From Periplaneta americana (lineage: Eukaryota; Arthropoda; Insecta; Blattodea; Blattidae), in NCBI RefSeq assembly GCF_040183065.1, contig NC_091119.1, positions 104,894,263 through 104,958,262 of the forward strand: a stretch of 64,000 bases of DNA, in the 5' to 3' direction. Shown one piece after another: positions 11,338-62,474 of this stretch. How positions within the stretch are numbered: the stretch's first letter is position 1; each line of letters starts with the position of its first letter. Under the pieces are notes generated by a model that was not told the origin of the DNA, searched no databases, and worked only from the letters and a program-made list of their open reading frames with translations. A program made the position numbers and the translations under genes.

Positions 11338-11424
11338 TCACGGTGCGGGAGTTGTGGTGGTGCTCGAGAAGGAGATCTGGAACTGAATGAGTATCACCAG
11401 GTACGTTGTCACCGCCCCCACAAT
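11338..11424 (-). CDS. Gustatory receptor shared exon 4 with TM7 and stop
   Basis: This is the terminal coding exon. On the minus strand an acceptor ending TTTGCATTGCAG is followed by codons for IVGAVTTYLVILIQF, a short tail (QISFSSTTTTPAP) and TGA at 11340-11338. TTYLVILIQF is the signature of the GR C-terminus (the TYhhhhhQF motif at the end of TM7), which makes this the most diagnostic exon of the locus. It joins in phase 0 to exon 3 (...LLYS), 10.3 kb upstream. Open frames called over it on both strands are in other reading frames. A candidate AATAAA signal on the minus strand lies at about 10769-10764; I did not establish the transcript end. Confidence 0.9.
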   Translation of the reverse strand: MVGAVTTYLVILIQFQISFSSTTTTPAP

Positions 11425-12313
11425 CTGCAATGCAAAGCAAAGGCAGAAACTCTACTCTATCTCGCTTTTTAACCTAACTCCTTCAATTATTTTTGTCTTC
11501 CATTTTCATGGTAGCTATACGCTGTATATTATACCTATAGTGGACATGATCTTGTTTTGAAATGAAATGAGAGCCTACTACGTATTTTATGAACTAATTT
11601 ATCATTGTCATCGGTGGTCTAGTTGTTATTATGTCTTCTATTGAGTTCAAGGTTTGCAGTTAAAACTCGGTCGAGAAATATGAAATTTAAGGGTGATACA
11701 AATCCTTAGTATGGATTTCTTTGGAAGGGAAGTAAAGCTGAGAATGAGTTTAGGGCCGGTTTTAATAGGTGTGCAATGCGTGCGTGCACGCAGGCGGCCA
11801 ATTTCCTTGGGCGGCCGAAAGAATAAATTTAATATATAATTTTAAAATAATTATTAATAATTTAGTGTTATACGAATTTTGCAAAGAAAAAAAGGTGAAA
11901 TAATGTGCTCTAATTTGATATCAATTTATTATTTCTCACACCTTCATTGACGGAAAAATACAGTAAATAAATGTTTATATTTAGCGGATTTGATTCACAT
12001 TTGAATTTACTTTAAAAACATAATGATGTGAAATGTGCACAGTTTGAATATTCACCCCACTGCATAAAATTCGTTCCTACTTCATAGTCAGCAGTGTGGG
12101 GAGGAACTTGTTGATTAAGAATTAAGTATAACAAGTGCGTATTTAGTTTTTTCATTGATTTATAAATGTAATAATTTATTTTCATTTAATTTATATTGAG
12201 CTTAGATAAGAGTTACTGTAGACAGGATTCTGCATAGAAAACCTTAAGAAAAGTTTGCGTCATTGCAACGTTTTAATTCACTCGAAAGGAGAAAATATTT
12301 TGTGCAGTATAAG
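11425..12313. other. Intron sequence, no gene recognised
   Basis: Part of the intron upstream of GR exon 4. I see no repeats or coding sequence that I can name. Confidence 0.5.
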
Positions 12314-12315
12314 AA

Positions 12316-12366
<51 letters not shown>
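12314..12366. repeat. AAT microsatellite
   Basis: A pure AAT repeat run of about 17 units, directly upstream of a LINE remnant. Confidence 0.9.
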
Positions 12367-12367
<1 letters not shown>

Positions 12368-13235
12368 TTAAGTCTGACTGTCAATTTCTTCAGAATGACA
12401 TTAATTCAATTACCAATTGGTCAGTCGATAACGGAATGATGATTAATTAATCCAAAACTTACGTAATAATATTTTCAAGAGAAACCTTTACACTAAAATA
12501 TAACTATCATCTAAAAAATGTATTAATGAATGGAAAAGATTGTATTAGAGACCTCGGTGTATTAATTGACGATAAATTATATTTTCACAACCACATTTAT
12601 TATATTTATAACCACGCAATAAGAATGTTAGGAATAATTTTGTCAATTACTTATTCCTTTTCAACATATGACTCTCTTTTAATAGATTACTATACTATAC
12701 ATTAGTGAGATCGAAACTCGAATATGAATCTGTAGTTTGGAACTGTATTACTAGTACTGATTCGGCAAAACTAGAAAATATTCAAAGGAAATTTATTTCA
12801 TTATGTTCGTACAGATTCCTGCCTAATAACTCCGGGTATAACTATGATAAAAATTGCGAGCACTTTAAATGTCGAAGCTTGTATGCTAGACATCATGATC
12901 TCGATTACTTATTCTCATGTAAGGTCCTTAAAGGTAACATTAATTGTCAATATTTCTTAAACAGTGTCAGCCTTCGTATTCCTATCAGGGACATGAGACA
13001 TCACAAACTCTTCTATATTAGAAATTCTAAATCTTCCTAGCCGGTCTCCAGATGTATTAAACATGCTAACTTACACGTAGGCGATTTCGATCCATTCAAT
13101 GTATAGAAGAATTAGAACATGACAATGTCTTTGCTAATATTATATGCATAATCTTTCTACACAAATTGGTAATAATTTTGTTAGAATCAACTCCTTTCCA
13201 TAAAATATTATAGTATTAATTCTTGTAAATTAATC
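12367..13235 (+). mobile_element. LINE (family D) reverse transcriptase C-terminal remnant
   Basis: The frame is broken but ordered: DINSITNWSVDNGM, then a 'DLGVLIDDKLYFHNH'-type phrase, then 12705-13040 with RSKLEYESVVWNCITSTDSA and KLENIQRKFISLCSYRFLP. Region YExxVWNxxTxxxxxKLExIQRKF is characteristic of Jockey/CR1-type LINE reverse transcriptase C-termini. It is truncated at the 5' side and ends in an ATT microsatellite, which probably marks its 3' tail. Confidence 0.78.
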
Positions 13236-13306
13236 ATTGCAATCTATGTCCTTCATTTTGTTGTCATCTCAATTATTTAATTTGTACCATAGTTGTTCAT
13301 TTTACT

Positions 13307-13307
<1 letters not shown>

Positions 13308-13383
<76 letters not shown>
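13308..13383. repeat. ATT microsatellite
   Basis: A run of about 25 ATT units at the 3' end of the family D LINE. It produces a spurious poly-isoleucine frame. Confidence 0.9.
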
Positions 13384-13391
13384 GATTTGAA

Positions 13392-13640
13392 GATGCCGAG
13401 CAGAAAGACTAAACGTCTCTCGGGTGCTTATTATCACAAATAGAAGAATGAAAGTGACAAGGAAAAGGAAAGATTACGATGTTCCATGCTGAAATTCGTG
13501 AAGTTAGATGAAGGTAATTCAAATGCATCAACATAAATCGGTTCGGACGTTTTTTTAAACAATAAGAACGAAATCTAAATTAAAGATGAAAAATCAGATG
13601 GGAAGAATAAAGTTTGTTTAAAATTATACCGGGAGAAAGT
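13392..13640 (+). mobile_element. hAT-like transposase N-terminal fragment
   Basis: The frame starts MPSRKTKRLSGAYYHK, has a stop, then continues KNESDKEKERLRCSMLKFVK. This resembles the short basic N-terminus (RLSGAxYRKxKxE...) of TTF-finger hAT transposase-derived proteins. There is no finger or catalytic domain. Assignment is tentative. Confidence 0.4.
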
Positions 13641-13674
13641 ATTTCTTTATTGAATAAAAGTATTTTTCAATTGC

Positions 13675-13740
13675 AGTAGACTCTTGCTAGTTCGACCATT
13701 CCTTGCACAGGGAGGTGCTGGATTAGCGAGAGTGCTTAAA
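13675..13740 (+). mobile_element. pogo/Tigger-type terminal repeat, single end
   Basis: CAGTAGACTCTTGCTAGTTCGACC starting at about 13676 resembles the CAGTAGACTCTCGCTAATTCGA ends of pogo-like elements, followed by GGATTAGCGAGAGTGCTT. A matching opposite end is not clear within 1 kb. Confidence 0.45.
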
Positions 13741-14989
13741 AATATCATTAAAATTTAATGTTATAAGTTGCGCCAACCATTCCACATGTACTTCTAGAAA
13801 ATTCCGTAAGTAGTCGGCGCGTGTACGACGTACATGTAACTTAATACAGAATAACACACGACACCTATGCAAATTTTCCAGAAAACTATTACAGTAGGAG
13901 AGATAGGAAATACGCTATGAGGCCGGATAATTGGGACGTCACATTACCGAGAGTCTAAACGACATTTCATAGAGTTGAGAGGATGCGACGGCATTTCTTT
14001 CCCCTTCTACTTGTCCTGAGTCCGTCAGTGGCAGACTGGTAGCTGTTACCTCTTATATCTGCACCCCCCCAAGCTGTACACACTAGAAAATAAAATATTA
14101 AATAATGTATATAAGTGAATATAAAATACAGTGACACAGATGTTTGACAATTACATGATAGAGTATATTTTTGTGTAGTTCTTACAATATTTTCAACTAA
14201 TATAATTAATTACATTTAGGAATACCAGTTTGTATTATGAAGTCAGGGGGAGCGACACAGTGCAGATTGTCCAGTTGTGTATGCAGTAGAGTAGCAACTA
14301 GCAGTGGAGAAAACATTTATCTTCTGTTGTCAGCAGCTTTTTAATGTGCCAGTCAATAAAATTCAATATAAACACTTAGTATGGACTTTCGAAATATAGA
14401 GTACCGTTAAACACTTTCAGAAATAAAATGTATCACTATGTAAGAAGTGAATTAGTCGAACGTTTGTGAGATCGACAGTAGTACTTTCCCCTTCACTGAT
14501 GATAGAGAGTGTGAGTAAAGGGGAAAGTCTATCAACCAAACTGAAATGGGATAGTATCTTCTCTGCGAAATGACAATATTGTAAAATACCTACTTCCTTT
14601 CCAAACCACTGATAAAATTAAATGACGAATTTTATCCATGTACAGTGTCTGTTAGCCGAATGCCCAAATTATTATTATTATTTTACTTACTTACAGAAAA
14701 AATCGAAAATTCTTGACTCGGTAAGAAGCTCTCTGTAATTGCAATTGAGAATCCTACTGTAGCAGCACTTGTGATTTATTCATAGGTCCATTGGATCAAA
14801 CGACTTAAAAGATAATTATTGCTTTTCTCGTAGATCATCAGAATCCAAGGCACATCCAACTGACAGTACGACTTTGCCCCCGTCTCCTATCTTATTGACG
14901 ATAGTAAAGGGAGAAATAACGGAATATGGCAGTAAAACCGTAACATCCTAAGAAGATGCTCCTAAAACTGTCTATATATCACCAATTGT
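13741..14989. other. No gene recognised
   Basis: Non-coding and probably partly an unrecognised element. I can support no boundaries. Confidence 0.45.
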
Positions 14990-16390
14990 GCGGAGTAAAA
15001 TAGAAAAGTGGTACCTAAACAATATTCAAATTGAAAGTGTGAGTAAATTTACATATTTAAATGTAATATTTAATAGTAAGAGAGATTGGAAAGAGCAAAG
15101 TGAAAATATCGGAAATAAAGGAAACGTAGCACTAACAGCAAGAGACAATGTTTAAATAAATGGCCCAACATAGATAGCAAAAGATTAAATGATATTTACA
15201 GAGCGACGATTGAAGCAAAAATATTATATATAGTGTTGAAATATTGAGAAATTACTTATCAGAAGTAAATGTAGATAGACTAAGATCTAAATTTTCTAAG
15301 AAATATTTGGGGATCCCATGGAATGCCTCAAATATAGCAGCCAGATAGGAAATGGTGATGGAGGGTAATAGAGGAACAATATTAGTTAGGAAAATTAAAT
15401 TTTTGGGTTATGTTGTACAGAAAGAAGAAAATTACATCTAGAAAAGAAGTTTAAGATTCCTACAAACGATGAAAACTAAGTCAAATTGGATAAAAGAATT
15501 GGAAAATAATTTAAGCAGTTTAGGACTAAATTGGTTACGGCAAGAAATTGGTGAAATTATATAAATTTGATAGGTAACATTATAACGGAGAGTAGCAACG
15601 AGATACTGAGTCAGGAAATGTTTAGCAAGCTAAATGGTTTAATATCATTAAACAAAGAAATGAAAATCATATAGAAACAGGAAGAATATACAAAAGTTAA
15701 CAACAGGGATGAAAGGGTGGTACTAGCGTAGTGGAGGTTGGGAATATGGATGTTAAGAAATAGAAGAAGAGACTTAGGAAAAGACATATCGATAGCCCAG
15801 AACCAGACGGTTCCAAGTCCATTTTACTATTTCCTTTTTCAGGAAAACTGTTTTAAGCTCCTGACATTCAAAGCTTCATGAAACACTTTGGAATAGCTTC
15901 ATAACAACCTTATGGAGAGGAATATTTACAATTTTGTTCGATTCTTATATGCAGACAAGAACTGGAACACAATGAAACATAGATTTCTTTCTTATAAAAA
16001 GTTGGACTTAGAACAGTCTGGTTCTCAGCCATCGATATGTCCTTTACGTAATAAAAAAGAAGACGCGTTACACATTCTTCTATCTTTCCCAGAAAATGAA
16101 AGAACAAAAAAAATTCTTATTCCGAAAACATTCCTGAAACTAAATGTAGAAATAGCATATACGAAATTGTATAGGATGGTAAACGGAAGAAAGTTCTTGT
16201 TAAGAAATAACTATAATGATTGTATGTAGTATGAAATAGGCTACATCGTAATAGTTATTAATAGTAAATGTAGTTAAGGGTGGTTTCCTGGAATACAGAA
16301 AAATGTAACAGGAACACCATTAACGGATGCTACGCGAATTGTACATGATTTTGATGACAATAAATATACATATACATATAATATATCACC
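14990..16390 (+). mobile_element. LINE (family B), longer copy with 3' end
   Basis: Broken frames give EKWYLNNIQIESVSKFTYL (compare the copy at 4950-5836), then after several stops the frame 15912-16229. That frame has CPLRNKKEDALHILLSFPEN, a degraded Cys-rich C-terminal domain of the CPLC...HILLxC type found at LINE C-termini. The 3' UTR ends in ACATATACAT repeats near 16385. Decay includes many stops. The clade was not determined. Confidence 0.7.
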
Positions 16391-16983
16391 AATTCTACTT
16401 AGATCAATTTCAACCTACATTTGCAGAGTGTTTATTTCTGAAGTTGGGCGATACATTTTAAACTTGTGTTGGATGATAGATAGTTTGTCTGTCTCACAGC
16501 AGTTTCCTACCACACATACTAGGGAATCAGGTGGAGTGTGAGTCTTGTATGTTTTGATTACTGACTGATATACGACTGGGACAATCGCCTTGAGATTCCT
16601 TGCGGTAACTCAGTGGGAACTAATTTGTAACTGCGGATACCTCTTTGTGACATCTCCGGCAGATAAGAGTTGGAACAATGTCGCTAGAGCACTTCATCAT
16701 TTACGAATACTTCTATTTATCGATGTCCATTTCGTTCTAATTTTGTGCCATAGTTAACTTCACCTTTTCGGCTCCTATCATAGCTTTTATCATAGCTGAG
16801 GACGGAAAACTTAGTTGCGTCAGTCTTATGGCCTTCGTACTCCCACTACATCAGATATTCTTGGTCACTACTGTTACTTCCATAAATTGCATAATATTCG
16901 TAACAATGGTAATATCTGCCACTTCTTAGAATGAATTCAGTGAGTTTCCACCATTTTTTTTTATTTTTAAATGGTCACCCTCC
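16391..16983. other. No gene recognised
   Basis: Nothing I can name; no long open frame. Confidence 0.5.
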
Positions 16984-16987
16984 TTAA

Positions 16988-18840: not shown

Positions 18841-18844
18841 TTAA

Positions 18845-19129
18845 GAATGTCTCATCTGTTGCGTGGTTGGAAGTTCAGCAGGTGGAATTATCATTATATG
18901 AGTTCACTAGCCGAGGGTGTTTCCTTAACTGACCAGTTGTAATTACTACCACACAATATAGTTCTTGCATTGCCATTATCACGAGTAATTAGTGCAGTTC
19001 GAAATTACTTATGTAGATTTCTATTTGTGACATCAGCAAAGTACTAGAGCGGTGGATACAAATTGAAGTTTTAACGAGACCAGTCAAGGAAGGCCATAGC
19101 CCTCTTGTAAACGTAGTTCCCTGCAAAGG
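18845..19129. other. No gene recognised
   Basis: Nothing identified. Confidence 0.5.
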
Positions 19130-19725
19130 AACGATACTGAAATCAAATGATAATAAACCAATGGAAGCGAAACAAATCCAAATGAAACCGAACAAAACCG
19201 AATTAAATAAAGAAGTAAGATGCTAAAGGAAACCAAACCAAATATAACCAAAGGAAGCTGAACGAATCGAGAGTAAACGTAACCAAAGGAAGCAGAACGA
19301 ATTCAAAAGAAACCGAACAAAACCAAATTAAATAAAGAGGTAAGATACTACAGGAAACCAGACCAAACCTAACCAAAGGAAGCGGAACGAATCCAAAAGA
19401 AACCCAATCAATCGAAACGGAACAAAAATGAAATTAAACGAAACGAAACTAAAGGAAATCGAAACCAAAGATAAGAAATAAAACGAAATGAAATGAAAAA
19501 AAGAAGGAAAAGAAACCAAAAAAAAAAAGACAAAGAAACTGAAAGGTAAAAAATAAAAGGTGAGACAGATCGACCTATGAGAAGGAAAGGAGATTAAATT
19601 AAATGGGAGGAGAGAAAGCCAAAGGAAGACAAGGAGACGGAAGAAAGGAAAATTCTACAAGGAAAAGGGATGAAAGATAGGGTGAAGAAACAAAATGGAA
19701 AGAAAGAAAACCAAACCACTTCTCT
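19130..19725. repeat. Tandem A-rich repeat, about 123-base period
   Basis: Phrases such as GAAACCGAACAAAACCAAATT and AAATAAAGAGGTAAGATACTA recur about 123 bases apart (near 19186 and 19309), with shorter AACCAAAGGAAGC units within. It degenerates into purine-rich GGAAAGAAAG DNA towards 19725. The strands are strongly asymmetric (A/G and AC rich on plus). Confidence 0.7.
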
Positions 19726-21684: not shown

Positions 21685-21774
21685 CGAATACAGCAGAGTA
21701 AAGTCAAGAGGGAAAAAGCCGCATGCTGTAAACTGGACCTTCCTGTGCAGGAGTTGGAGCGAAAACAGTTGCAA
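21685..21774 (-). CDS. Gustatory receptor shared exon 3
   Basis: This is a 90-base exon, phase 0 at both ends. It is preceded on the minus strand by a strong polypyrimidine acceptor (CTTTTCTTATTTTTCAG) and followed by a GTAAGC donor. It encodes LQLFSLQLLHRKVQF followed by a GFFPLD segment ending LLYS. This is the highly conserved segment just before and entering TM7 in insect gustatory receptors (FSLQLLHxxVxFxAxGxFxLD). It follows naturally from exon 2 (...VREE) and leads into exon 4 (IVGAVTTYLVILIQF). The exon lies 17.4 kb downstream of exon 2. The open frame around it continues into both introns and should not be read as the protein. Confidence 0.88.
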
Positions 21775-39131: not shown

Positions 39132-39200
39132 CTCTTCCCTAACTTCAGGATCCTTCGTTTTGCTGAGAAGTTTGTGAACCAGAACTGCAGTCCGATTTGC
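39132..39200 (-). CDS. Gustatory receptor shared exon 2
   Basis: This is a 69-base exon, phase 0 at both ends. On the minus strand a pyrimidine-containing acceptor ending TTACTATTTCCAG precedes the codons for ANRTAVLVHKLL and a charged tail ending VREE, followed by a GTAACT donor. The Ala-Asn-Arg-Thr / Leu-Val-His-Lys-Leu block is the conserved segment that follows TM6 in insect GRs. It continues in frame from all three upstream first exons (...TSE, ...TSQ, ...RYE). It is too short for ordinary ORF calling and lies beside a CATA microsatellite. I saw no other copy in the window. Confidence 0.87.
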
Positions 39201-41180: not shown

Positions 41181-42364
41181 CAACCACTGAATGTTGGCTT
41201 CTTTCATGGAATGAACGTTGTCTGGCGACAAGTATTAACTGAATGAAGAAATTATGTGGTTGTACTTCCTAAGCAACGGTTTCCAACTCTGTTGGAAAAA
41301 GTTCTTGATTTTATGGAACCAAAACTGAAGAAAAACGTAACAAGTGCTTCTTTCAGAGAAATGTGGAATAGTTTCATGTGATGTTGAGCGATTGCTAGAA
41401 CGCATCATACGGAAGGAAGTGTACCAATATGCATTAAATGGTTAATTCTTAAAAATTCTTTAAAAAAGAACATGTTTAAGTATAAATGCAAATGCATAAA
41501 AAGAAAGATTATTTCTGTTCCAAAGAGAAAAATTGCGTCTCATTCCATACCGAATGTCAATAATGTTGCAGCAGATGTTGTTCTTCATGGACCTCCAGGC
41601 CAAGAGAAAAACATCCGAAAAGCAAACAAATTATCGGAGAGCAATGAAGTGTCACACCAAACTCTTCTGAGAAAGAAAACTGGAGATCGTATAGACAGGT
41701 ATATCTTCAAGGATTAGAGGATGAGGGTGATGGTGATGGTGATGATTAAGATGTATCAGCTCTCGAGCTACACAGAATAAACCTATCAGGAAGCAAGTTT
41801 GACCATTTGTGATTGAATAAGAGAATAATTTATATCTAGGTGACAGTGGAAGTTGCAACGAAAGTGATGCATCCATAAGTGCAATGATTAAATCGCTGAT
41901 ATCTTGAAAGTGGTCATCCAAAGATGTATTCTTTTTATTAATGGAAAATCATGGCTGTATGCAGTGAGCCAACAAAATTATTACATATTTAGAGATTTCT
42001 TCCAAGTTTTTGAATTGAAAAGTGCTTAGTAGTGCGAAAAATTTTGTTTCGGCCTGTTGAAGACTCCTACTTTATTTGTATTATTTCTCATTTCACTATG
42101 AGGAAAGAGCTCAAAATAAGTTGTACATGCGTGAAGAATAATCATACACATTATACTTTATAATTATGTTTTATTGTTTTTTTTTCAGAAAAATTGTTTC
42201 CTAATAATTTTGAATGAATTTTCCTAATAAGAGAGGATTTCTTTTCATTCTGCAAAAGGATAACCCTTAAGGAGTATAGTTGTGTTAAATAAACAACGAT
42301 TAACATTGCAGCACAGAATAATTATTGCATTAAGATAATACAGATTTTGAGTTTTTTGAAATTG
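41180..42364. other. Intron sequence, no gene recognised
   Basis: A frame at 41472-41717 (basic, 81 codons) has no recognisable domain. I leave it uncalled. Confidence 0.45.
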
Positions 42365-42612
42365 CTAATTAACGACGCTTTTCAACTACAGTATTGAGTT
42401 ATTTAGAGTTGATGAAAGTGGGGATAGCAAGATTGTATTTGGCGAGATAAGACGGATTTGCTACAGAATACATAACATCCGACACACAGTTGGAAGAAGC
42501 TCGGAAAAAAACCAAACCAAAAAGTCAGCCCAAACGGGAAGCAAACCCATGCCCGAGCGCAACTCGTGATCAGCAGGCAAGCGCCTGTGCTAACTGACCT
42601 ACACCTATGGCT
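42365..42612 (-). repeat. tRNA-derived SINE (family S3), duplicated copy A
   Basis: The minus-strand tRNA-like head (inverted ...CGAGCGCAACTCGTGATCAG, GCAAGCGCCTGTGCTAACTG) is followed by a body ending in the AACGACGC...CAACTACAGTATTGAG phrase. It lies in the duplicated GR segment; its partner is at 45667-45890. Confidence 0.7.
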
Positions 42613-42837
42613 GATTTGGAAATTTTAACTAAATAACCCATCCTCATGGAATACTCCTAATTATCTGATGTTCTAGTTAACACCGTGCGATATCAGGATG
42701 TTTTTGGCATTTAAAAACAGAATTTACAGAAGTTCTTATATACTGAAGCAATGTAGCCTTACGGTACCTATTACAAGACTGAGTTTAAATGACATAGTAT
42801 TTGACACAAGGAGAGAAGTATTCAGGACCATCAACAA

Positions 42838-43392
42838 CAGAAAGGTTATGACTACCGTGTTTTGGCACCAAAAATTGTCGCTTGTTGAGTTTAAGAAACC
42901 GAAGACTACGATGAATGCAGCTGTTTACTGTCAGACTTTGCGACGACTGCAGCGAGTCATTCAAAATAAAAGAAAAGACATGCTGACTTCTGATTCATAA
43001 CAATGCCCGCCTTCACAGTGCTGCTGTATCCTAACACATTCTTCAGCAATTTCGATGGAAAGTGTTTGAACACCCGACGTATAGCCCCGACTTAGCGCCG
43101 GGCAACTTCCACCTCTTCCCTGAAGTGAAAAGTGGCTAGGAGGACAGATGTTCCAGAGTAATGAGGAGCTCCAAAACAACGTTAAGGCCCATCTCAACTC
43201 ACAGGCAGCAACATTCTATAAAGAGGGGATTACAAAACTCGTCCACAGATATGACAAATCCCTCAATCTTCACTGTGAGTATGTCGAAATTTAACCATGT
43301 TTCTACATAACTTTTGGTAATAAATTCATTTTGTTATTTACACTTGTCTTTTTATTGACCATCGGAGGTTAATATATAGACACACACTGTAT
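42838..43392 (+). pseudogene. mariner transposase relic, 5'-truncated
   Basis: The C-terminal half of a mariner-family transposase. Frame 1 gives KVMTTVFWHQKLSLVEFKKP then TTMNAAVYCQTLRRLQ. After frameshifts come an HNAR-like remnant, YSPDLAPGNFHLFPE (the DLAPxDxHLFP motif holding the third catalytic Asp of DD34D in intact copies, here Asp to Asn in the APxD position) and NSQAATFYKEGITKLVHRYD. It ends near a TGTATA terminus. The N-terminus and left repeat are missing. It lies in the intron after first exon A and is absent from duplicate copy B. Confidence 0.82.
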
Positions 43393-43494
43393 ATTAAATT
43401 TTAGTGAATTTTGAATATTTGCAACTCGTTAAAAATGGTTGCACATTACACAAGAATGAAAAATTTTGCATACTCGCAACATCGTTTGTCTTAC

Positions 43495-44733
43495 CTCGGA
43501 CGTACAAGTGGTGCAAGAGTGCGTTAGCCAGCACATACCATAAACCTGGGACAAGACGTTGAAGGTGTGTGTGACTGTGTCACAGTAGCGATGGTAGTCC
43601 AGGTGCACGCTATTGCTCAACAGGTCGTACAGCAAGTATGTGAGAGCCCCGAAGATGCAAGAGATGTTCAGGAGACAGTTCGTCGAGTACACCGACTCCA
43701 TGCGCTCAGCTGTGACGCACAGAGAAGAGTGCAGCTGGTCGAGAGAACTTAACCCGTCTGCCCACGGAATAGGACGAACGGGAGGCTTATGTTCAATTCT
43801 TGAGAAAGTAGGTGAATCAAACGATTGGGATTTCATTCTCATGATAATTGGTGGACCAGAGGGTTCAGATTTAATTGTTGAAGATAACATAGCTGAACTA
43901 GGAAAATTCGAATTAATTTCGGAGGAAATAGGAGAACGAGGCTGTTTCAACCCTTTTCTCGAGACAATATGTGCACTAAGCAGTTTTAGTGCAATTGCTG
44001 AGGGAACGGGTCGACCAAATGCATCCACGTCTGTTCTATGAAGAACAAATGAGCCGAGAGGCTCTGATTCCATTGTTGAGGATGTAGATCGACGATATGT
44101 TCGTAACTGCACTGTTGATAATATTGTAGGTGGACTGGTTGGTTGCCTATGAAGTGCACATAAACGTTCAATTGTTTCGTTTAGATGTGTGAAGTGCTGC
44201 TTCAGTATTGTGACAAAAGTCATAAACTGTAATTGTATCATACAATTCGTGAAAATGAGACAATACAATGGAATTAAGGAGTAGACAGTGTACAGGCTGC
44301 GAGTGTCTACCATGATGATCAAAAAGCTCATAGTAGGAAAAGTCATTTTCATAGCTATGAAAATAATTATGAGACAAACTAACGACCGATTTACGTGGCA
44401 CTTTGCCCCGTTGAGCGCGCTCATAATTAGCCGGATTTGTCTACCTTTCCAAAAACACGTAACAATTGAAAATAAGTAGCATAGTATCAAGCAACTTTTC
44501 AAATACACGACTAATTTCTGTGCGACGCTGTGGTTGGCGAGATTCATCAAATGAGGCATCTGGAACACAATCCATGACACTGCGAACACACTAATAGTAG
44601 TGAACACTACGACACTATGCACTGCAATTAGTCGGGAGAACTCGAATTTCCCGTGTTTGTGAACAAATGGAAACAATCCAATGATTCTACATATTACGAA
44701 AACTGTCTTCAGATCTCCACGCAGCCCTGACAT
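43495..44733 (-). CDS. Gustatory receptor, alternative first exon A
   Basis: This exon encodes 413 residues of a 7tm_7 gustatory receptor from an ATG at 44733. Predicted membrane segments are TM1 35-57, TM2 75-95, TM3 118-141, TM4 147-176, TM5 351-372 (ALTYLLYDLLS) and TM6 389-407 (CWLTHSC). The stretch from about 185 to 335 is a hydrophilic Ser/Pro-rich insertion in the loop between TM4 and TM5, far longer than in first exon C. This loop is expected to be cytoplasmic in insect GRs. The exon ends ...CTTCTSE at a GAG|GTAAGA donor (intron starts 43494). Joined to ANRTAVLVHKLL at 39.2 kb it restores the usual GR sequence after TM6, and the full product would be 494 residues. The open frame runs 21 codons past the donor before a stop, so an ORF caller overextends it. 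Confidence 0.9.
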
Positions 44734-44937
44734 GGCATCCGTAAAGCAACGCAGAGAGTAATGTACTGGGGAGGCTATTAGTAATATTGTTATGAGACAT
44801 GACTCAAAGATGTTATCGACTTTACTGTAGGTGATGAGACCTGGATATCATTTCATCATATATTCTATCTGCCTTTACCCTCATAAAAGCAATTATAAAT
44901 TATTACCACTTTCTAATTACACATTTCATGTATTAAG

Positions 44938-45455: not shown

Positions 45456-45666
45456 GTATTATGTTTTATAATTATGTTTTAGTGTATTTTGTTTGACAAG
45501 AATTCTTTCCTAATAACTTTCAGTGAATTTTACAATAAGGGAGGATCTCTTTTCATTCTGTAAGAAGTTAACCCTTTAGGAATATAACTGTGCAAAATAA
45601 ACTGCATTTAATACTGATGCATTATATTCCATTAAAATAACTCAGATTTTGATTTTCTTAAAGTTA

Positions 45667-45890
45667 CTGTTTAACGACGTTCTATCAACTACAGTATTAG
45701 GTTATTTTGTGTTGACGAAAGTGGGGATAGGAAGATTGTATTTGGTGAGATAAGACGGATTTGCTACAGATTACATAACATCCTACACACAGTTGGGAGA
45801 AGCTCGGAAAAAACGAAACCAGAAAATCAGCCCAAACAGGAAACAAACCCATGCACGAGCGCAACTCGTGATCAGCAGGCAAGCGCCTGT
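45667..45890 (-). repeat. tRNA-derived SINE (family S3), duplicated copy B
   Basis: Partner of 42365-42612. It is truncated exactly in the head at GCGCCTG, where copy A continues, and the following DNA aligns to the far side of the mariner relic in copy A. Confidence 0.7.
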
Positions 45891-45996
45891 ATATTCCAGT
45901 TCAGTGAATTTTGAATATTTAAATTTCGGTCAATATGCTTGCACATGACACAAGAATGAAAAAATTTTGCATACTCACTAACATCGTTTGTCTCAC

Positions 45997-47217
45997 CTGG
46001 GACGTACAAGTGGTGCAAGAGTGCGTTAGCCAGCACATACCATAAACCTGGGACAAGATGTTGAAAGAGTGCATGACTGCGTCACAGTAGCGATGGTAGT
46101 CTAGGTGAACTCTATTGCTCAACAGGTCGTACAGCAAGTATGTGAGAGCCCCGAAGGTGCAAGAGATGCTCAGGAGACAGTTCGTCGAGTACACTGACTC
46201 CATGCGCTCAGCCGTGACGCATAGAGAAGAGTGCAGCTGGTCGAGATAACTTAGCCCGTCTGCCCACGGAATAGGACGAACGGGAGGCTTATGTTTAATT
46301 CTTGAGAGAGTAGATGAATCCAACGATTTGGATTTCATTCTCATCATAGTTGGTGAACCAGAGGGTTTAGATTCCATTGTAGTAGAAAACATAGCTGAAC
46401 TAGGAAAATTCGAATTAATTTCGGAGGAAATAGGAGAACGAGGCTGTTTCAACCCTTTTCTCGAGATAATATGGGCACTAAGCGATTTTAGTGTAATTAC
46501 TGAGGATACGGGTCGACCAAATAGATGCACGTCTGTTCTATGAAGGACGAACGAGCCGAGAGGCTCTGATTCCATTGTTGAGGATGTAGATCGACGATAT
46601 GTTCGTAACTGCACTGTTGATAATATAGTAGATAGACTGGGTGCTTGACTATGAAGTGTTTCGTTTAGATGTGTGAAGTGCTGCTTCAGTATTGTGACAA
46701 AAGTCATAAACTGTAATTGTATCATATAATTCGTGAAAGAGAGACAATACAATGGAGTTAAGGAGTAGACACTGTACAGGCTGCGAGTGTCTACCATGAT
46801 GATCAAAAAGCTCACAGCAGGAAAAGTCATTTTTATAGCTACGAAAATAATTATGAGACAAACTAACGACCGATTTACGTCGCACTTTGTCCCGTTGAGT
46901 GTGCTCATAATTAACCGGATCTGTCTACCTTTCCAAAAACACGTAACAATTGAAAATAAGTAGCATACTATCAAGGAACCTTTCAAATACTCTACTAATT
47001 TCTGTGCGACGCTCTGGTTGGCGAGGATCAACAAATAAGGCATCTGAAACAGAATCTACGACACTGCAAATACACTAATAGTAGTGAATAGTACGACACT
47101 ATGCACTGCAATTAGTCGGGAGAACTCAAATTTCCCGTGTTTGTGAACAAATGGAAACAATCCAATGATTCTACATATCACGAATACTGTCTTCAGATCT
47201 CCACGCAGCCCTGACAT
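45997..47217 (-). pseudogene. Gustatory receptor, alternative first exon B, with in-frame stop
   Basis: This is a close tandem duplicate of first exon A. Reading from the ATG at 47217 (MSGLRGDLKTVFVICRIIGL...), codon 54 is TAG (plus-strand 47056-47058), where copy A has TGG (Trp) inside TM1. Beyond the stop, the frame is open through TM6 and ends ...CTTCTSQ at a CAG|GTGAGA donor (45996). The copy is six codons shorter than A just after TM4 (near HFTHLNET) and keeps the long Ser/Pro-rich TM4-TM5 loop. The frame is otherwise intact, so it is either a very young pseudogene, an assembly or sequencing error, or a read-through case. An internal Met at 47043 would lack TM1. With the shared exons the product would be 488 codons including the stop position. 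Confidence 0.85.
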
Positions 47218-47418
47218 GGCGTCTGTAAAGGAACGCAGAGAGTAATGTACTGGTGAGGCTATTAGTAATATTGTTATGGTACATGACTCAAAGATATTAT
47301 CGACTTTACTGTAGACGATGAGACCTGAATATCATTTGATCACATATTCTATCTGCCTTTATGCTCATAAAAGCAATTATAAATTATTACCACTTTCTAA
47401 TTACATAGTTCATGTATT

Positions 47419-47831
47419 AAGAAACGAAGAATCTTGCCGCGTTGACTGCTACATATAGCAGTGTTAAATGAAATCACATCAGCCTTAGGCTTAAGATGTA
47501 TTCTTACTATAATATTCATATTACATTTTTCTCTGCTTTTTTTAGTACTACAATGCTGCATTATACTGTGACATAGCCAATTATGTTACACATTCTCTAG
47601 TATTAACTGCATTATCTTTTTTCGTGCTTATAAAATAATACTGGTCCTCCAGTCTACTTTACCTGTCCTCTGCTTGTGAAGAAAGATATCGCGATATGAG
47701 CAGTTAACATCGTCAAGAAAGAATGTGATATTTGCACTGAGTTTACAAGAACTTCCTACATGTCTGATTGCTTCTCGTGTGCATTGTAATCAATAGAGGT
47801 AGGAAGTTCGTACCAAGGCTGTTAACTTGTA
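47419..47831. other. No gene recognised
   Basis: Nothing that I can name, except the TA target site at 47830-47831. Confidence 0.5.
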
Positions 47832-49174
47832 CAGTAGCGTGCAAATTAATCCGAAGAACGTAATTACTTATGCAAAAACACTGAAACAGGATAAAAAAGG
47901 ATCTAAGACATACCTCAGTAATCTATGTGGCCTCCCTTGTTCCTAATAATAGCTCTGAGACGATTTGGCATGGATTCCACTAATTTCCCACAGATATTCT
48001 TCATTTCTTTATCGCGAAACCATACACCAATGAGGGCAGAAATCATCTTCTCCTTTGTGGAACAATCCATTTTTTGCATTCTTGTTTTGCAAATTAACCA
48101 GAAGTTCTCAATGGGGTTGATGTCGGGCGAGTTGCCTGGCCAGGGGAGTACCTGAATATTCTTCTTGTTGAAAAATTCTGTAGTTTTTCGAGACGTATGG
48201 CATGGTGCCAGGTCTTGTTGGAACACACCTCTGCCATCCGGAAATGATTTTTGCAGCTGGGGTACGATTCTGGTTTCCAATAAGTGAATATATTTGTCAG
48301 AATTCATCATTCCCTTGATAGGTATTAATGCTCCAGGCCCTTCATGTGTAAAACAACCCCAAAACATTACTTTAGGGGGGTATTTGGGTGCTTGTTGGAG
48401 ATGAGCTGCTGTTACTTTATCAGATCCTTTCCGTACATAAGAAACACGGTGGCCGTGGACCTCGAAATGAGCCTCATCGGAAAAAAGTACATTCTTCCAG
48501 TCATTCACTGTCCAGTGTTGATGCAATTTTGCTCACATTAAGCTTTTTTTGCACATAACAGGGGTTAGCAGTTGCTTCTTAATAGGCTTACGAGCCCTTC
48601 GTCCAGCTTCCAAAAGCCTACGCCGCACTGTTGTGACGTGAATATTCGCCCCAGTGGTAGCCATTAACTCGCGGGTAAAGTCGACAGCAGTTAGTCTAGG
48701 ATTTAATTTACTTTTCCTGACAATTAAACGATCATCTGCAGGTGAAGTCTTCCTTTTCCGGCCACAGTTTCCTTTTTTCTGGAGTGTGATGGATCCAGCC
48801 TCCCTGTATCGTTTTATGATTGAATTAACAGTAGCCAAACCGATGTGACATTCTGCAGCAATTTGCCTCTGTGTCATAGAAGAATGCTCTGCTAATGTTA
48901 TAATTTTAGACCGTTTTCGTGGAATTGTATCCATTTGTGAAGACGACAGAATGTACACAGGATTGCAGTATTAAGTCTTCAACACAACTGAAATGCTTAT
49001 AAGTACAAAACGACAGGCAAAATGTCACATATTATAAAAAAAATAATGACAGACCTTCAACAATGGAATTACACGTACTACAGATGTCAATTAAAGCGGT
49101 ATGAGCAGCTGTGAGGCCAACAATGACAGAAAATGTGAAAATATGTCGTGTTCGGATTAATTTGCACGCTACTG
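47832..49174 (-). mobile_element. Tc1-like transposon, nearly intact
   Basis: 1343 bases between TA dinucleotides (47830-47831 and 49175-49176). Terminal inverted repeats of 24 bases begin CAGTAGCGTGCAAATTAATC and are identical at both ends. It contains one transposase frame on the minus strand, interrupted by a single stop. The sharp ends and near-complete frame indicate recent activity. Confidence 0.92.
47915..48934 (-). pseudogene. Tc1 transposase, single nonsense codon
   Basis: A 340-codon frame from ATG 48934 (MDTIPRKRSK) to a stop at 47915, normal Tc1 length. The N-terminal paired-type helix-turn-helix (QRQIAAECHIGLATVNSIIK) spans about 15-50 and the second HTH with GRKRKTSPADD about 55-120. 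The DDE domain has FSDEAHF, QQDLAPCHTS and NPIENFW; 34 residues separate the second Asp and the Glu (DD34E). The frame is broken only by TGA at 48535-48533 (codon 134), where the family normally has Trp before AK-x-H. No frameshift is needed to read through, although the two halves are usually called separately. Confidence 0.9.
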
Positions 49175-49329: not shown

Positions 49330-49620
49330 TAACAAATTTTTCCCTCGAAATTATTCAAATCAACTTTACAGGGAGTTATACCTGAAATCTTGATTTGCAT
49401 AATACACGTCACTGTTCGTTAACAGAAAACCACAATTTAAGTCACACGGAGTTAGTGTGCACTCGAAGTTGGTTGCTTGACGGTTGTCAGCCCACTTTGA
49501 GGTCTGTGGATATAGAGGGAAAAATTAGATCGGTGTCGGTTAGAGTTCCCGGGTAGCTCAGTGGTAGAGCGTTGGTACGTTAAACCAAAGGTCCCGGGTT
49601 CGATACCCGGCTCCGGAACA
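49311..49620 (+). repeat. Tandem tRNA-like repeat unit (first locus)
   Basis: A T-arm remnant at 49311, a spacer (CAAATTTTTCCCTCGAAATTATTCAA ... TGTGGATATAG) and a full tRNA-like sequence at 49545-49620, giving a period of 286 bases between T-arms. The 76-base cloverleaf has paired GTTCC/GGAAC acceptor ends, a D arm with GCTCAGTGGTAGAGC, a TTGGT/ACCAA anticodon stem and a CCGGG/CCCGG T arm. Anticodon position 33 is C instead of U, and the isotype is unclear, so I call it tRNA-derived rather than a gene. Confidence 0.7.
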
Positions 49621-55470: not shown

Positions 55471-56429
55471 TAGTGTGAATGAAAACAAACGTTAAAAAAG
55501 CATAATGTACAAATATTTGAAGATAGCATAATAAGTAAATTAGCAATGTTTCCTCGAGTGACTTGATCCATACTGGGTGTAATGTTGCAACGTTCACTGA
55601 TCATCCAGCGCCGATAAATCTCCCAGCGAGCTTCTACGCTTCCCGTCCACTGCTGCTGCACCGACCGCTACACGTTGTTTCGTAAGTAATTAAATTTCCA
55701 TTAAACTATTGGAGATCCCATTGTGATTTTTTCTGGGATTATTAAGAATACTTCAGTGCACCTAGTAGGCATTATTTTTTATTTATTTTTTTTTTTTTAG
55801 ATTTTTAATACGGCTATTTCACATTGATATCTAACTTTTAAGAATTGAATCATAAAAATATTTGTAATAATTATATTAAAATCAGTTAGTAAATATTTAA
55901 CAAAAGACAGTACTTTAAGCTTTTAAATTCATTTTTCAAAAAAAATTTTAACATCAATATCCTCAGGAATGTGATGCTTTAAATATTGCATTGTGCGACA
56001 TTTTTAGCGAATTTTAACATGCAATATTTTAAAAACCTGTGGACTTAGAAGGAAATAAAAATACACTTGTTGGTTTATTAGACCTATAGAGTTGGTAAAA
56101 AAATATAAACGCAATCAGAAATACGAAGGTCAAAATTTGTATAATTTTGTGCGATTTGACGTGGAATGACTCTTATATAACCTCAGACTTTGCTGATATG
56201 TTAAGTTTAAGGATATGATAGCTATAGCTTCTTGTTTCTTTACGGGGCTTTTTAAGTAGTTTCATGAACATGCAGAACAAGAAATGTTAACGTCATCGAG
56301 TACGTGGATAGCCTATATACAATTCTAAGCAGAGACAAGAAACTTATGAGAGTTGTTTACAGAAAAGAATATCAGAATAATTATATCTATTAGAGAAAAA
56401 AAAATGTCATTAGGAAAATCCAGAATAAC

Positions 56430-57225
56430 AGGAAAGGTTTGCAATTGAACGGGTTGTTTATATGTTAGAAGATAATCCACAAACGATTAGGGAAAGACGG
56501 GAATTTTACTTGAAGCAAGTAAGGAAATAGGTTTGAAAGTAAACAACGAAAATACAAAGTATATGATTATGTCCCGTGATCAGAACATAGTACGAAATGG
56601 AAATACAGAAATTGGAAATTTATTCTCTGGAGCAACAGTAACAAATAGAAATGGCACTCGAGAGGAAATTAAATGCAGAATAAATATGGGAAATGCCTGT
56701 TATGATTTTCGGTTGAGAAGCTTTCACCATTCACTCGGCTCTCGAAAAATCTGAAAGAATTTATAAAACAGTTATATTACCGATTATTCTGTATGTTTGT
56801 GAAACTTGGGCTCTCACTTTAAGAGAGGAACAGAGGTTAAGGATGTTTGAGAATAAGGTGCTTAGGAAAATATTTGGGGCTAAGAGGAATGAAATTATAG
56901 GAGAATGGAGGAAGTTACACAAAACAGAACTGTACGTATTGTATTTTTCATCTGACATATTTAGGAAAATTAAATCCAGACGTTTGAGATGGACAGGGCA
57001 TGTAGCACGTATGGGCGAATGCATAGGGCCAATAGAGTGTTAGTTGGAAGATTTGAGGGGGAAAAAACCTTTGGGGAGGACGAGGCGTAGATGCGAGGAT
57101 AATATTAAAATACATTTAAGGGAGATGGGATATGATGGTAGGGACTGGATTAATCTTGCTCAGGATAGGGGCCGATCGCGGCTTATGTGAGAGCGGCAAT
57201 GAACCTCCGGGTTCCTTAAAAGTCA

Positions 57226-57261
<36 letters not shown>

Positions 57262-57262
57262 A
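56430..57262 (+). mobile_element. LINE (family F) C-terminal region and tail
   Basis: Broken frames run from the reverse transcriptase (NTKYMIMSRDQNIVRNGN, INMGNACY) through ILYVCETWALTLREEQRLRM and FENKVLRKIFGAKRNE to RRLRWTGHVARMGE and LREMGYDGRDWINLAQD. It ends ...NLRVP at about 57218, followed by a (TAAG)n tail (57231-57262). The GRPRxRWEDNIKxDLREVG block also occurs at 36729 and 63330. Probably an RTE-like or related LINE; the clade was not verified. Confidence 0.82.
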
Positions 57263-57559
57263 GATTAATAGGACACTGAGACAATTCTAGAAAGAAACAG
57301 ATCGGATAATTTATTTTTAAAATGGTTATACCATTCTTAGAAACAACACAAATTTTGAACGTTTTATTTCTGAAACATTTATAGAATATTTATTCAGTGT
57401 TTAATGTAGTTTATTTATAATCCCGTGTCCCCATAATAATATGTGTTTCGTTTATTTTAACAAAACGATGTACGGATGTCTGACGGCAAAGAAAACATTC
57501 AAGTGTTTTTGTGCCGTTACTAAAAGGAAAGTTGATCTGCAGAAGAAATTTTAAGGTTG

Positions 57560-57925
57560 AAGTTGATAACGAAGAACAACATGAATTTGGTTCAAATGTT
57601 TCAAAGACACAACTGCAGGCTATTTAGGTTGGATGGCCATCTGAGTTTTATAGTGATGGTAGGAAACTTCTACCAAGCACACAAAGGCTGTCGCCATAAC
57701 TTGGCCTTCACCATGTAACTTATTCCGTCTCTAAAATTTAAGCTTACGTTGATTTTTATTGTAATTGTAAATTTAATACTAATTTTAATTTTATTTGTAA
57801 TTGTAATTGTAAATTTAATACTAATTGTAATTTTATTCTTCATATTATAGTTGTAATCTCCTGGTAGAGGGGCAGAGAAGGCCTGACGTCCTTATCTCTA
57901 CCAGGTTAAATAAATAAATACTACT
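57560..57925 (+). mobile_element. LINE 3' end with hairpin
   Basis: The end of a broken frame (the GRKLLPSTQRLSP-type phrase at about 57660) is followed by variable TAATTGTAA repeats and a terminal stem GGTAGAG...CTCTACC, then AGGTTAAATAAATAAATA. The same closing layout occurs inverted at 184-270. Confidence 0.65.
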
Positions 57926-59010
57926 AAATACTACTACTAACCGGCCTTCACAAGTCTGGAATGAATTGAAAAATTCATAAACCTTGAGATGTTTGAGTTG
58001 ACATACGTTTCCAGCTATTCTAAAATGCTTCATGTAATCAATTTTGTAGAGGATCGTCTCATGCGATGAAGTATGTATCTTTTTAAGCAGTGGAGTAAAA
58101 CAGAACAGTGTTCAACAAGCGGAACTGTTTGTTCCGTGATTCGATAATACCTCTTTGAGCATAGGACTATGCTATGTGTTTGTGTAATGTTGAAGGTGTA
58201 ATTCACTTTTATCGGATATAGAACCATTGATGCTGAAATGTACTCTCAATAATAGGATCACATAGCCTACACGATATTTTTGAATAATCGCTATTCGTCT
58301 ATAGTTGACCGAAAGTGAATTATTTGCAGAAATGATAACGCTCCAGCCAACAATGATGGTAAATTGTAGAAGACGTAACGTGTGGCTTAGACGAAAGGAC
58401 CTTGGACTGATATTTCTTACAGTATAATTGAATTAAGACACCATCTGCACATATATAACGTACTATATGATTACCTTATAAGAGAGTCAGAAAAACTTTG
58501 AGAGCAAGATCTGGTGGAAATACTGAGTAGACTCTATAGGCTACTGAAGGTATTACATGGATAATGATATATCTTTCAATAATACAGTGCATGTCTGTTA
58601 ATAAGTTAGGTTAAGGTAGGCCTATATGTTGTTAAACTGTTCAATTTACATGTTAATCCATATGTGGTTTGATTTTAATTTTAGGTTAGGAAGGCGCAAG
58701 ATAGTAAGGTATGTTATGCAATGCAAAGCACGTACGGTCAAAATATCAGTGCACTGGATTTAAGGGCAAATTCTATATGTGTATTATGTATGTCTGACTG
58801 TTGAATAAATCCATAGTCATCTAAAAAATCATTATGTTAACACGTGGATCGCTAATTAAAAAAAAATGCCCAAACGAAAAGGTGTTACAACTCGTAGAAC
58901 TATTAGGCCTACATTATTGTAGGAAGTCTCTCAGAAGCAACACAAAGAACGGGAGAAAATGAAGGTTTGTTTCAGTATCACACTATAGGTATTAAAAAAT
59001 TTAAATTATG
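57926..59010. other. No gene recognised
   Basis: Intronic DNA with no named feature. Confidence 0.5.
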
Positions 59011-59226
59011 GTTTATTTTATGACGCTCGCAACTGCCGGGGTTATATCAGCGCCGCCGTTGTGCCGGAATTTAATCCCGCAGGAGTTCTTTTACATGCCA
59101 GTAAATCTACTGATATGAACCTGTCGCACTTAAGGACACTTAAATGCCATAGACCTGGACCGGGATCGAACCCGCAACCTCGAGCACAGGATGCCAGCAC
59201 TATACCGACTACGCTACCGACGCCGA
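59011..59226 (-). repeat. tRNA-derived SINE (family S4)
   Basis: The minus-strand head at the right end (GTCGGTAGCGTAGTCGGTAT, then GGTTCGATCCCGG) is followed by a body with CACTTAAGGACACTTAAATG. The partial copy is at 41036-41180. Confidence 0.7.
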
Positions 59227-61604
59227 CTTATAGGTATATGATCAATACTCGAAGTGGACAGAAAAATCCATCACCATTATGAGACTAGTTATTTCGCGAA
59301 AAATCAAAATTGGAAAAGACAAAAAAGTATGTAATTGGTGCTGAGTCAGGCTGTGGCCTGCTATAAAATATGTACGACCTCGTAACATTTCTTGATTCTT
59401 CCTCTAATCCTACGGATCCTACGAGTATATTAGGAAACAAGGATGTTAGAAATGTATTATCTCATAGTATCATGGGTTATCTCCATCGTGGTAATCTTTC
59501 CGGCCGCATTATAACCCTGGGCGGCAAGAACGTAGGACTGAAATCCCTACTGCTACTAATATTGTGTGCAAACTTGAGACCTTGACTCCTCTACCATGAG
59601 GGCATCAATGGTCTGTAATAGAGAACACTTTACCTTTTTACATATTTATTTTCTAAAATAAAATATGTTACATCATAAACATACTGTACTTCGTATAAAT
59701 ATTAACATAGGTACCTTTAATTATCTGTGTAATTTAAAGGCACCATGTTCTACCACGGCATAATACTATGCTGTGTCATGAGGGCAGCAAACTCATATAT
59801 GATCTTTTTTTGCTTTTATCTTTCAGCTGATGTAATTCTGTACGAAACATTGAATCTCTTCTCCAACTACATATAAAAATATTCGACAACTTGTGGTGTT
59901 AGTGTGATAAAGATTTTAAAACCTTCCGAATCAGTATATAACCACATTCTGGTATATACAGTCACGAAGCTCAGTACGTAGTAAATATGTATCCATAGAT
60001 AGTTGCTAACCACTAGGATCGCTACTAACGCCTCATTACAGACAATGCGAAATAGTAGCTGCACAGTCTATTGTTTCTAGTACCCTCAACAACTCAAACT
60101 TCGTGATTGTATATACTAGACTGTGATATAACTCTCCCATAAATTTTAATCAATCACAATTTTCCCATTTTCTATAGCAACTAGCCAAACCCATACCTTC
60201 TTCTTTCCTCCTTAACTCATGGACACGTGGCAATAACTATGCAAGAGCATCTACTCCTCCGACATTCGAAGCACAACTGTTCTTATAACATGTGAATGAA
60301 CTCTGTTACGTAATGGTCTGTTTCAAATATGCTATTAACTTCGCTTGAAGTCCCGGTATGTAGTTACTGAGACGCAAGAAAGGTTATGTATCTTCGTGTG
60401 GATGTAGCCTTACAATGACACAGGAACATCATTTTATTTTTACTAACATTTCTAATATTAACCTGGCTATACCTTTGGTTTAACGGTTGAGAACCGGAAA
60501 CACCGTTTGCTACACCCTTCACGACTGGAGTTAGATGATACTGGCGTAAAATACAAACAGATCGCTTTACTAGATATAAGAGGGAAGAAAAGTAGTTCAT
60601 CCATTTACGTAAACTAGGAAATATCCCAATTTTAAGTTTGATCATTTGCATTAGGTTTTTGTTTAATCAAAATACAGTACTGTATTAACAATAATTGTTT
60701 TTACTCACGAACTGAGCTATCCATTCGGACGCATTCATTATGCAGTATATATTATATTGTCTACAGTACATTAGCGTACAATATAGAGAATGAAGTTAAA
60801 TGGAAAAATAATCATAATATGGATAATTAAACACAATTTTGAAAATGGTGACCGTTCATTTCGATACAGGCTACAGTTCTTTTGTACATATTATCGCAGT
60901 ATAGACTATTGTACCTAATTCCAATTATCAGTTTCGTCCTTCGTAATAGTAACTCATGTTGAAATAATTCTTTACTTACTCTATAAAAGAGTACCTTACG
61001 TACTTTAAATTCAATCTTCACTTCTGACCAATCTGAAAAGATAAAATTGTCCGTCCAAGTGGTTTTGTCGTAGGGTCGTAGAAAGCGGGGGGGGGGGGAA
61101 TCATGTAACAGTTAATTACTTTTATTTAAATTATTTAAACAGTTGTATAATATTACATAGACGTTAAATTCCTAACGGAAATTAATGTTTTCAGAAAAGA
61201 GCTAAGACAACCCAGCCACTAGACTTTACAGAGGGGCGAGCAGAAGCAGGTGGGGGAAATCGGGATGGGACGTAGGCAAACGGACGACAGTACCTGTGCG
61301 AAAATATGATTCAATATCGAAAGCTCTTTCGTCACTGGAAAACGCGAATATATTTCTGGAACTTGCTATACTCTACTAACTGATTACCGTTTACTATGAC
61401 CGTAAGGCGAGTTTGACTGCATACGCGGCCTTGGTTCTGTGTGGAGGACAGTTGGAAGTTTACTAGTAGAGGGGGTGGGAGTGAAGTACATTTAAATACT
61501 CAGGTACAATAAAAACTGAATGAAAAATAAAATGATGTCTCTGTACTTCTCAGAATTCAACTGAATAAAGTCTGTGGGCAAGCAGCTTGCACTGCCTGAC
61601 TTAC
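59227..61604. other. Intron sequence after first exon C, no gene recognised
   Basis: Contains a G homopolymer at about 61086-61099. I looked for a GR constant exon here on the minus strand and saw none. Confidence 0.5.
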
Positions 61605-62474
61605 CTCATATCTGCCGGCACTGCAGGAATAAGTGAGCCAGAGCAAGTTCCACAAACAGTGCCATAGAGTGCATAGGTGGAAGAGTTCGGACTGATGCTG
61701 CTGGGACTCTAATCGAATGTAGGTGCTGATGAGGTCGTACAGCACGTACGTGAGCTGAATGAAGGAAGAGCTGACACTAACCAACGTGATTGCAGAGTAA
61801 GTCGTGTGCGTCTCGTCAGCTGTACGGCACACGGACTCGTACAGGGAACTTACTCGATGGACTGTCTCAGCGACATGGTCCGTGCCTCCTAGTTGTTCAT
61901 TGAGACTCAAGAACTGTTGACGGAGTAGCAGCGAGAATATCACTAACTGGAGCTGCACGATATCACTTACACTCACTACAAAGAAGAGAGGAAGCGCGCT
62001 TAAAGTCACTGGTAAGTTAACAGAGGGCACATTTAAGATGGATATCACTGAGAACAGAAATTTAGCAATTACAGCTAATATGAGAACTGGAAATACATTC
62101 CTCACACAAACTTTTATCTCACATACGTAGTCCCAGGAATGGAAACCAGTCATTAAGAGTAGAACATTTCGAGTTTTGTAAATAACAAAGAATATGCAGA
62201 ACAAGGAGCAAAGAATTGTGTAATTGCCAACGACTAAGCCAGCGGCGTTCAACACGCTTGAACATCTTAAACAGGTGAGTGATGGCACTTCCACCGCAAG
62301 CCAGGCCAGTGAACAGACAGGCGTGGTCACATTTAACAGCAGAGAATACAGAAACATCGCTTTACTAAGTCTGAACTCTGATTCCTCATGCCATTTGTAT
62401 GGAAATAAGCCCACCGCCTTGGACAGGCAATGTATAGGCTTCAAGTGTGGGTTGAGGGTACAAGCAGTCCTCAT
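61605..62474 (-). CDS. Gustatory receptor, alternative first exon C (most upstream)
   Basis: This exon encodes 290 residues of a 7tm_7-family gustatory receptor. The start is the ATG at 62474, with A at -3; the longer open frame begins at a non-ATG codon. Hydrophobic segments fit TM1 (about 38-60), TM2 (75-97), TM3 (125-145), TM4 (155-185), TM5 (235-255) and TM6 (270-288). The loop between TM4 and TM5 is short, about 40 residues, as is normal for the family. Conserved GR features include GLFPY near the N-terminus, LTYVLYDL in TM5 and the W-L-x-Y-S-C motif at the end of TM6. The exon ends ...GRYE, immediately followed by GTAAGT at 61604-61599. Joined to the exons at 39.2, 21.7 and 11.4 kb it gives 371 residues, a typical GR length. 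It is only distantly similar to first exons A and B. Confidence 0.88.

Follow-up and report, generated by a model that had tools for sequence, protein, structure and literature searches.

Analysis of a 64,000-nucleotide stretch of the American cockroach (Periplaneta americana) genome (C3:104894263-104958262, referred to throughout as the window) indicates that it holds part of what is very probably a single gustatory receptor (GR) locus, in which an array of alternative first exons is predicted to share one common 3' end. An earlier reading of the window, made from its letters only (the sequence-only reading), had proposed that three long first exons, each ending at a phase-0 donor after transmembrane segment 6 (TM6), are spliced to the same three constant exons. 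Sharing of the constant set remains the best-supported reading, but one of the three first exons (B) is broken, and the number three was set by the window edge, with three more first exons (D, E and F) upstream bringing the count to at least six. Judged by exon arrangement, the unit is likely to span approximately 84 kb for the F isoform, with six first exons of which four (A, C, E and F) are intact. Positions are given in the frame of the window, and the exons all lie on the minus strand.

Constant exons

39132..39200, minus strand: exon 2, 69 nucleotides (nt), 23 codons, phase 0/0; probably the inner end of S6 and the start of S7a.
21685..21774, minus strand: exon 3, 90 nt, 30 codons, phase 0/0; probably the rest of S7a and the start of S7b.
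11338..11424, minus strand: exon 4, 87 nt, 28 codons plus the stop TGA; probably the remainder of the S7b pore helix, including TYLVILIQF.

The positions, splice sites and phases originally given for these exons were borne out. Each has an AG acceptor, exons 2 and 3 each have a GT donor, and the three lengths are all multiples of three and keep phase 0. When the 3766 minus-strand GTs were ranked by U1 pairing energy the donors of exons 2 and 3 came 54th and 19th, while a simple pyrimidine score of our own placed the acceptors of exons 2, 3 and 4 at ranks 131, 8 and 141 of 3123. Hidden Markov models (HMMs) of exons 2, 3 and 4, comprising 149, 162 and 151 rows with the window's own exon as one row of each, returned scores of 40.6, 69.7 and 34.6 bits at the named exons, against next best scores in the window of 2.2, 2.4 and 2.8 bits and top scores in shuffle controls (10 for each exon) of no more than 4.8, 5.3 and 4.2 bits. 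When the window's own exon and every identical row were removed and the models rebuilt (148, 158 and 150 rows), the scores were 40.5, 69.6 and 34.6 bits. The HMM scans of the window found each exon once only and no second constant set, in agreement with the single set visible to the sequence-only reading. The motif TYhhhhhQF, described for S7b of insect gustatory receptors (PMC11100771), is present in exon 4. Weaker candidates for receptor pieces were discarded: a tblastn cluster at 7780-8318 is a low-complexity ATTT run, and HMM scans show no constant exon at the weak tblastn clusters at 12.3-13.5 kb and ∼27 kb.

First exons within the window

61605..62474, minus strand: first exon A, 290 codons, intact, phase-0 donor GAG/GTAAGT; predicted GR S0-S6.
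45997..47217, minus strand: first exon B, 407 codons, interrupted by TAG, phase-0 donor CAG/GTGAGA.
43495..44733, minus strand: first exon C, 413 codons, intact, phase-0 donor GAG/GTAAGA, with an insert in the S4-S5 loop.

The phase-0 donors ascribed to the three long exons are present as GTs at 61605, 45997 and 43495, and by U1 pairing energy they rank 4th (A), 1st (B) and 8th (C) among the same 3766. The longest open frame of the window has 472 codons, compared with 114-190 codons in 20 first-order Markov shuffles. The earlier statement that all joins keep frame holds for phase, which is kept at every join, but not for the reading frame of B, which contains an in-frame TAG at 47056-47058 where exon C reads TGG. 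Although B joins exon 2 in phase, the TAG prevents an open frame from running through B and exons 2-4, and B as assembled would not make a receptor; the TAG may be a polymorphism or an assembly error. Within the window, then, only A and C are intact among the three first exons. B and C share 85% amino-acid identity, and a clear relationship between A and C is shown by BLASTP (E 5e-17). A Ser/Pro-rich insert of ∼130 residues (43768-44175) lies in the S4-S5 loop of C; B has one too, and A is without it.

A strong acceptor-like TTTACAG at 47223-47229 (rank 37 of 3123) ends 5 nt before the ATG of B, and its counterpart in C, at 44739-44745, reads TTTACGG. The site may mark an intron in the 5' untranslated region. 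The possibility that B is an internal exon, suggested by the AG 5 nt before its ATG, was dropped, the matching bases in C being GG.

Receptor identity and structure

The sequence-only reading had recommended a scan of each joined protein with the Pfam profile 7tm_7 (PF08395; curated cut-off 26.6 bits), and this was conducted for A, C, E and F. A joined to exons 2-4 (371 amino acids) scores 134.6 bits in one stretch covering profile positions 1-369 of 370, and C joined to exons 2-4 (494 amino acids) scores 133.6 bits in two stretches. The constant part alone (81 residues) scores 91.0 bits and exon C alone 29.7 bits. For E and F the scores are 162.8 and 170.4 bits in the joined proteins versus 60 and 70 bits for the long exons alone. 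Additionally, a sequence search of solved structures (E <= 0.001) returned five matches for A and five for C, all of them insect gustatory receptors. On the basis of these predicted proteins the locus is assigned to the insect gustatory receptors (7tm_7).

An AlphaFold2 model of exon A, computed with 41 other sequences, has a predicted local distance difference test value (pLDDT) of 87.8 and a predicted template modelling (TM) score (pTM) of 0.85. The model has S0, a beta-hairpin and then helices ordered as S1-S6, which fits the earlier proposal that the long exons end after TM6. Foldseek comparison of the model placed BmGr9 and Gr43a at ranks 1-9, with query TM scores of 0.82-0.85, and insect odorant receptors at ranks 10-18. 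The predicted structure of exon A alone, therefore, has the GR fold for S0-S6. In BmGr9 the pore is lined by S7b and the ligand pocket is formed by S0-S6, with helix bounds of 345-389 for S6, 395-409 for S7a and 424-444 for S7b (PMC11100771). Residues 203-359 of joined A align with residues 293-449 of a BmGr9 chain, 157 residues in each sequence, and an ungapped offset to BmGr9, anchored at the QF of the S7b motif (443-444), places exon 2 from ∼377, exon 3 from ∼400 and exon 4 from ∼430. By homology, the constant exons would accordingly code for the inner end of S6, S7a and S7b, with the variable exons coding for the rest.

Extension of the array beyond the window

The genome that was searched comprises 3.23 Gb in 91 contigs, and for the upstream region 151,838 joined bases around the window, with zero N, were read. 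Three further minus-strand first exons were found upstream, ∼3-32 kb past the window end.

67388-68250, minus strand: first exon D, frameshift mid-frame; donor CAG/GTGAGT, -11.7 kcal/mol.
73516-74502, minus strand: first exon E, 329 codons, open; donor GAC/GTAAGT, -5.2 kcal/mol.
94447-95382, minus strand: first exon F, 312 codons, open; donor GAG/GTGAGT, -10.3 kcal/mol.

No ATG was seen in D in the open stretch ahead of its first conserved part. There are hence six long same-strand first exons with a phase-0 donor (A-F), four of which are intact. Separate exon 2-4 sets lying between the first exons had been named as an observation that would argue against sharing; HMM scans of the interval from 39200 to 110302 found no other spliced constant exon. 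Two matches resembling exon 3 do occur there (23.5 and 18.2 bits), both belonging to single-exon receptor genes, and the next best scores are 3.2 bits for exon 2, 5.7 bits for exon 3 (on the other strand) and 2.7 bits for exon 4. Going upstream, spliced constant exons are next encountered at 110302-110349 (an exon 4, ascribed to the neighbouring gene) and at 111896-111985 (an exon 3); both are located upstream of F and cannot serve it.

Two single-exon GR genes lie between E and F on the same strand, at 80528-81817 and 85261-86472 (L030:7890-9179 and L031:2723-3934), and both lie within what would be the first intron of an F transcript.

Duplication and growth of the array

45458..47421, minus strand: B copy of the tandem-duplicated unit, matching the C copy.
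42150..44937, minus strand: C copy of the tandem-duplicated unit, interrupted by ∼0.8 kb of additional sequence at 42589-43386.

First exons B and C lie in a tandem duplication in which 45887-47421 matches 43387-44937 with 91.1% identity over 1553 columns and 45458-45890 matches 42150-42588 with 83.7% identity over 441 columns; the extra ∼0.8 kb in the C copy is mariner-like by eye. A third short match between the copies (80.9%, 136 columns) was taken as a dispersed repeat. The match stops in the intron, ∼3 kb short of exon 2. Since it ends there, the copy event brought no constant exons of its own, and this favours sharing. Synonymous divergence (dS) between B and C is 0.106, and the ratio of non-synonymous to synonymous divergence (dN/dS) is 0.61 overall, 1.22 in the loop and 0.42 elsewhere. 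A one-sided binomial test for fewer amino-acid changes than neutral, which assumes equal rates, gave values of 0.031 overall and 0.0025 outside the loop, with no departure from neutral in the loop itself (0.66).

In a first-exon tree of 28 sequences, from which D was left out, A, B and C are united in a single clade (99/97), F groups with P0003, the putative Gr28a isoform X1 of the termite Zootermopsis nevadensis (100/100), and E joins exons of another cluster weakly (86/75); several branches are long and the deep joins are unsure. It is unlikely, though conceivable from this tree, that one constant set serves first exons from different receptor lineages. If it does, first exons may have moved between constant sets, and an old pore cassette would have gained new ligand pockets via exon shuffling, beyond tandem duplication alone.

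Proposed expression of the locus and alternative explanations

Under the shared-end reading, each long first exon would code for S0-S6, and hence the ligand pocket, and stop at its phase-0 donor, which would be joined to exon 2 at 39200 and then to exons 3 and 4. Each first exon would most likely have its own start site, and transcripts begun upstream would skip the downstream first exons within their first intron. Every mature mRNA would thereby code for a single pocket, while the pore and part of the tetramer anchor would be common to all of them. Broken isoforms would come from B, through its nonsense codon, and from D, through its frameshift, with A, C, E and F apparently intact.

Several observations weigh against this reading. 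Exon A alone gave no 7tm_7 match in the Pfam scan, the donor of E is weaker than the others, and both B and D are broken. The predicted first introns measure 4.3-55.2 kb and are followed by introns of 17.4 and 10.3 kb; fly introns at such loci are much smaller. Furthermore, a protein search with the A, C and F joins, in a database that includes P. americana, revealed no near-identical protein with any of these joins among the matches listed (80 of 80, 120 of 175 and 120 of 218 in the three listings).

In an alternative reading, only C, the nearest intact first exon, is used, with A, E and F being stranded relics whose own 3' exons have been lost. In its favour, the decay of B and D is visible, the introns from A, E and F to exon 2 are long (22, 34 and 55 kb), and the A, C or F join occurs in no database protein among the matches listed. 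However, A, E and F retain open frames of 290, 329 and 312 codons together with phase-0 donors, which speaks against their being relics because unused relics would be expected to lose them. F, moreover, is 43% identical over 281 residues to the first-exon part of the Zootermopsis receptor, and loci with multiple first exons are common among the intron-containing receptors of Blattella, where at least some splices are supported by RNA sequencing (RNA-seq) (PMC6175461). Restriction of the locus to exon C is considered very unlikely. Yet more improbable is the presence of two or more genes, some first exons being served by a divergent or unassembled constant set between them, which would suit the position of E and F outside the A/B/C group in the tree and the chance that very divergent exons escape the HMMs, but which is opposed by the zero N count of the 151,838 bases and by leftover HMM scores close to or below the shuffle maxima (exon 2, 3.2 against 4.8 bits; exon 3, 5.7 against 5.3 bits; exon 4, 2.7 against 4.2 bits).

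Related clusters and neighbouring features

A genome search with exon C returned 20 matches, six of which correspond to parts of A, B, C and D. The 14 others were screened for GTs that are in frame within the final 60 codons of the longest frame. Eleven of them form two clusters, with six on contig C12 (148.94-148.99 Mb) and five on C3 (104.47-104.67 Mb). All six long exons of the C12 cluster have GTAAGT (-10.2 kcal/mol), and the donors in the C3 cluster are GTGAGT (twice), GTAATT, GTAATC and GTAAAT (-6.9 to -10.3 kcal/mol). Of the three matches left, one is a receptor exon at another place on C3 (GTCAGT), one is a complete receptor in a single exon on C8, and the third, on C17, is a short frame that is doubtful. 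Downstream of both clusters there are matches to exons 2, 3 and 4, located at ∼149.025 Mb for C12 and at ∼104.44 Mb for C3. Taking these exons in order, the L048 set scores 14.7, 59.0 and 21.5 bits, the exon 4 match being partial, and the L049 set 35.2, 69.7 and 34.6 bits. Judged by this layout, sharing of a constant set is likely in the C12 and C3 clusters also.

Constant-exon sequence was encountered in some unexpected protein models. P0077 of P. americana carries the name sodium/hydrogen exchanger 9B2-like isoform X3, but its end consists of GR sequence from exons 2 and 4 and lacks exon 3, which makes it either a fused gene model or a read-through product. P0001 (Timema californicum), P0002 and P0003 (Zootermopsis) have more than one exon-3-like piece before one exon 4, and the P0001 and P0002 models contain several exon 2-3 pairs, which suggests either that tandem genes were merged or that these are arrays whose constant exons have been duplicated.

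Other features of the window are as follows.

10375-10445: tRNA-like, Tyr (ARAGORN).
49547-49619: tRNA-like, Asn (ARAGORN).
63074-63146: tRNA-like, Ser (ARAGORN), among repeats by eye.
47915-48970, between A and B: two consecutive open stretches in one minus-strand frame, with a stop between.

The Ser element at 63.1 kb may belong to a tRNA-derived short interspersed element (SINE), and the stretch at 47915-48970 looks, by eye, like a broken Tc1-type transposase.

Comparison with known systems

The cockroach genome paper of 2018 gives 522 GRs for this species (PMC5861062); the string 'alternative splic' is absent from its main text, and the present locus may already be in its supplement. Gene counts can understate receptor diversity in cockroaches, as one locus could give four working receptors, which in this array would have different ligand pockets and one pore. 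The locus also carries a warning for annotators, because constant exons at distances of 4 to 55 kb are easy to overlook. Models of this type have been accepted on gene arrangement, even without reads, in work on the origin of odorant receptors (eLife 2018; PMC6080948).

Among the matches listed, the closest relative of F is the Zootermopsis P0003 protein, which is 46% identical to the whole joined F protein over 88%, the difference being that its gene model has a second exon-3-like piece before exon 4. In Drosophila, the four alternative 5' exons of Gr39a code for the N-terminus and the first six transmembrane segments, and its last three exons, which are common, code for TM7 and the C-terminus; alternative splicing yields two proteins from Gr23a and five from Gr28b (PMC6307266). 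Tribolium castaneum Gr214 follows the same plan with far more first exons, its 30 alternative long 5' exons all leading into three 3' exons that they have in common (as cited in PMC6307266). The same architecture, including pseudogenic isoforms, was described in Blattella germanica by Robertson et al. (2018), with RNA-seq support for at least some of the splices, at the alternatively spliced loci among Gr51-94 and Gr418-430 (PMC6175461). One of these, Gr60a-m, has 13 first exons compared with six here, in another species and at another locus. The known mechanism is unchanged by the P. americana locus, which is larger than first thought and represents a real, ordinary and well-formed case of an architecture already well known in insects.

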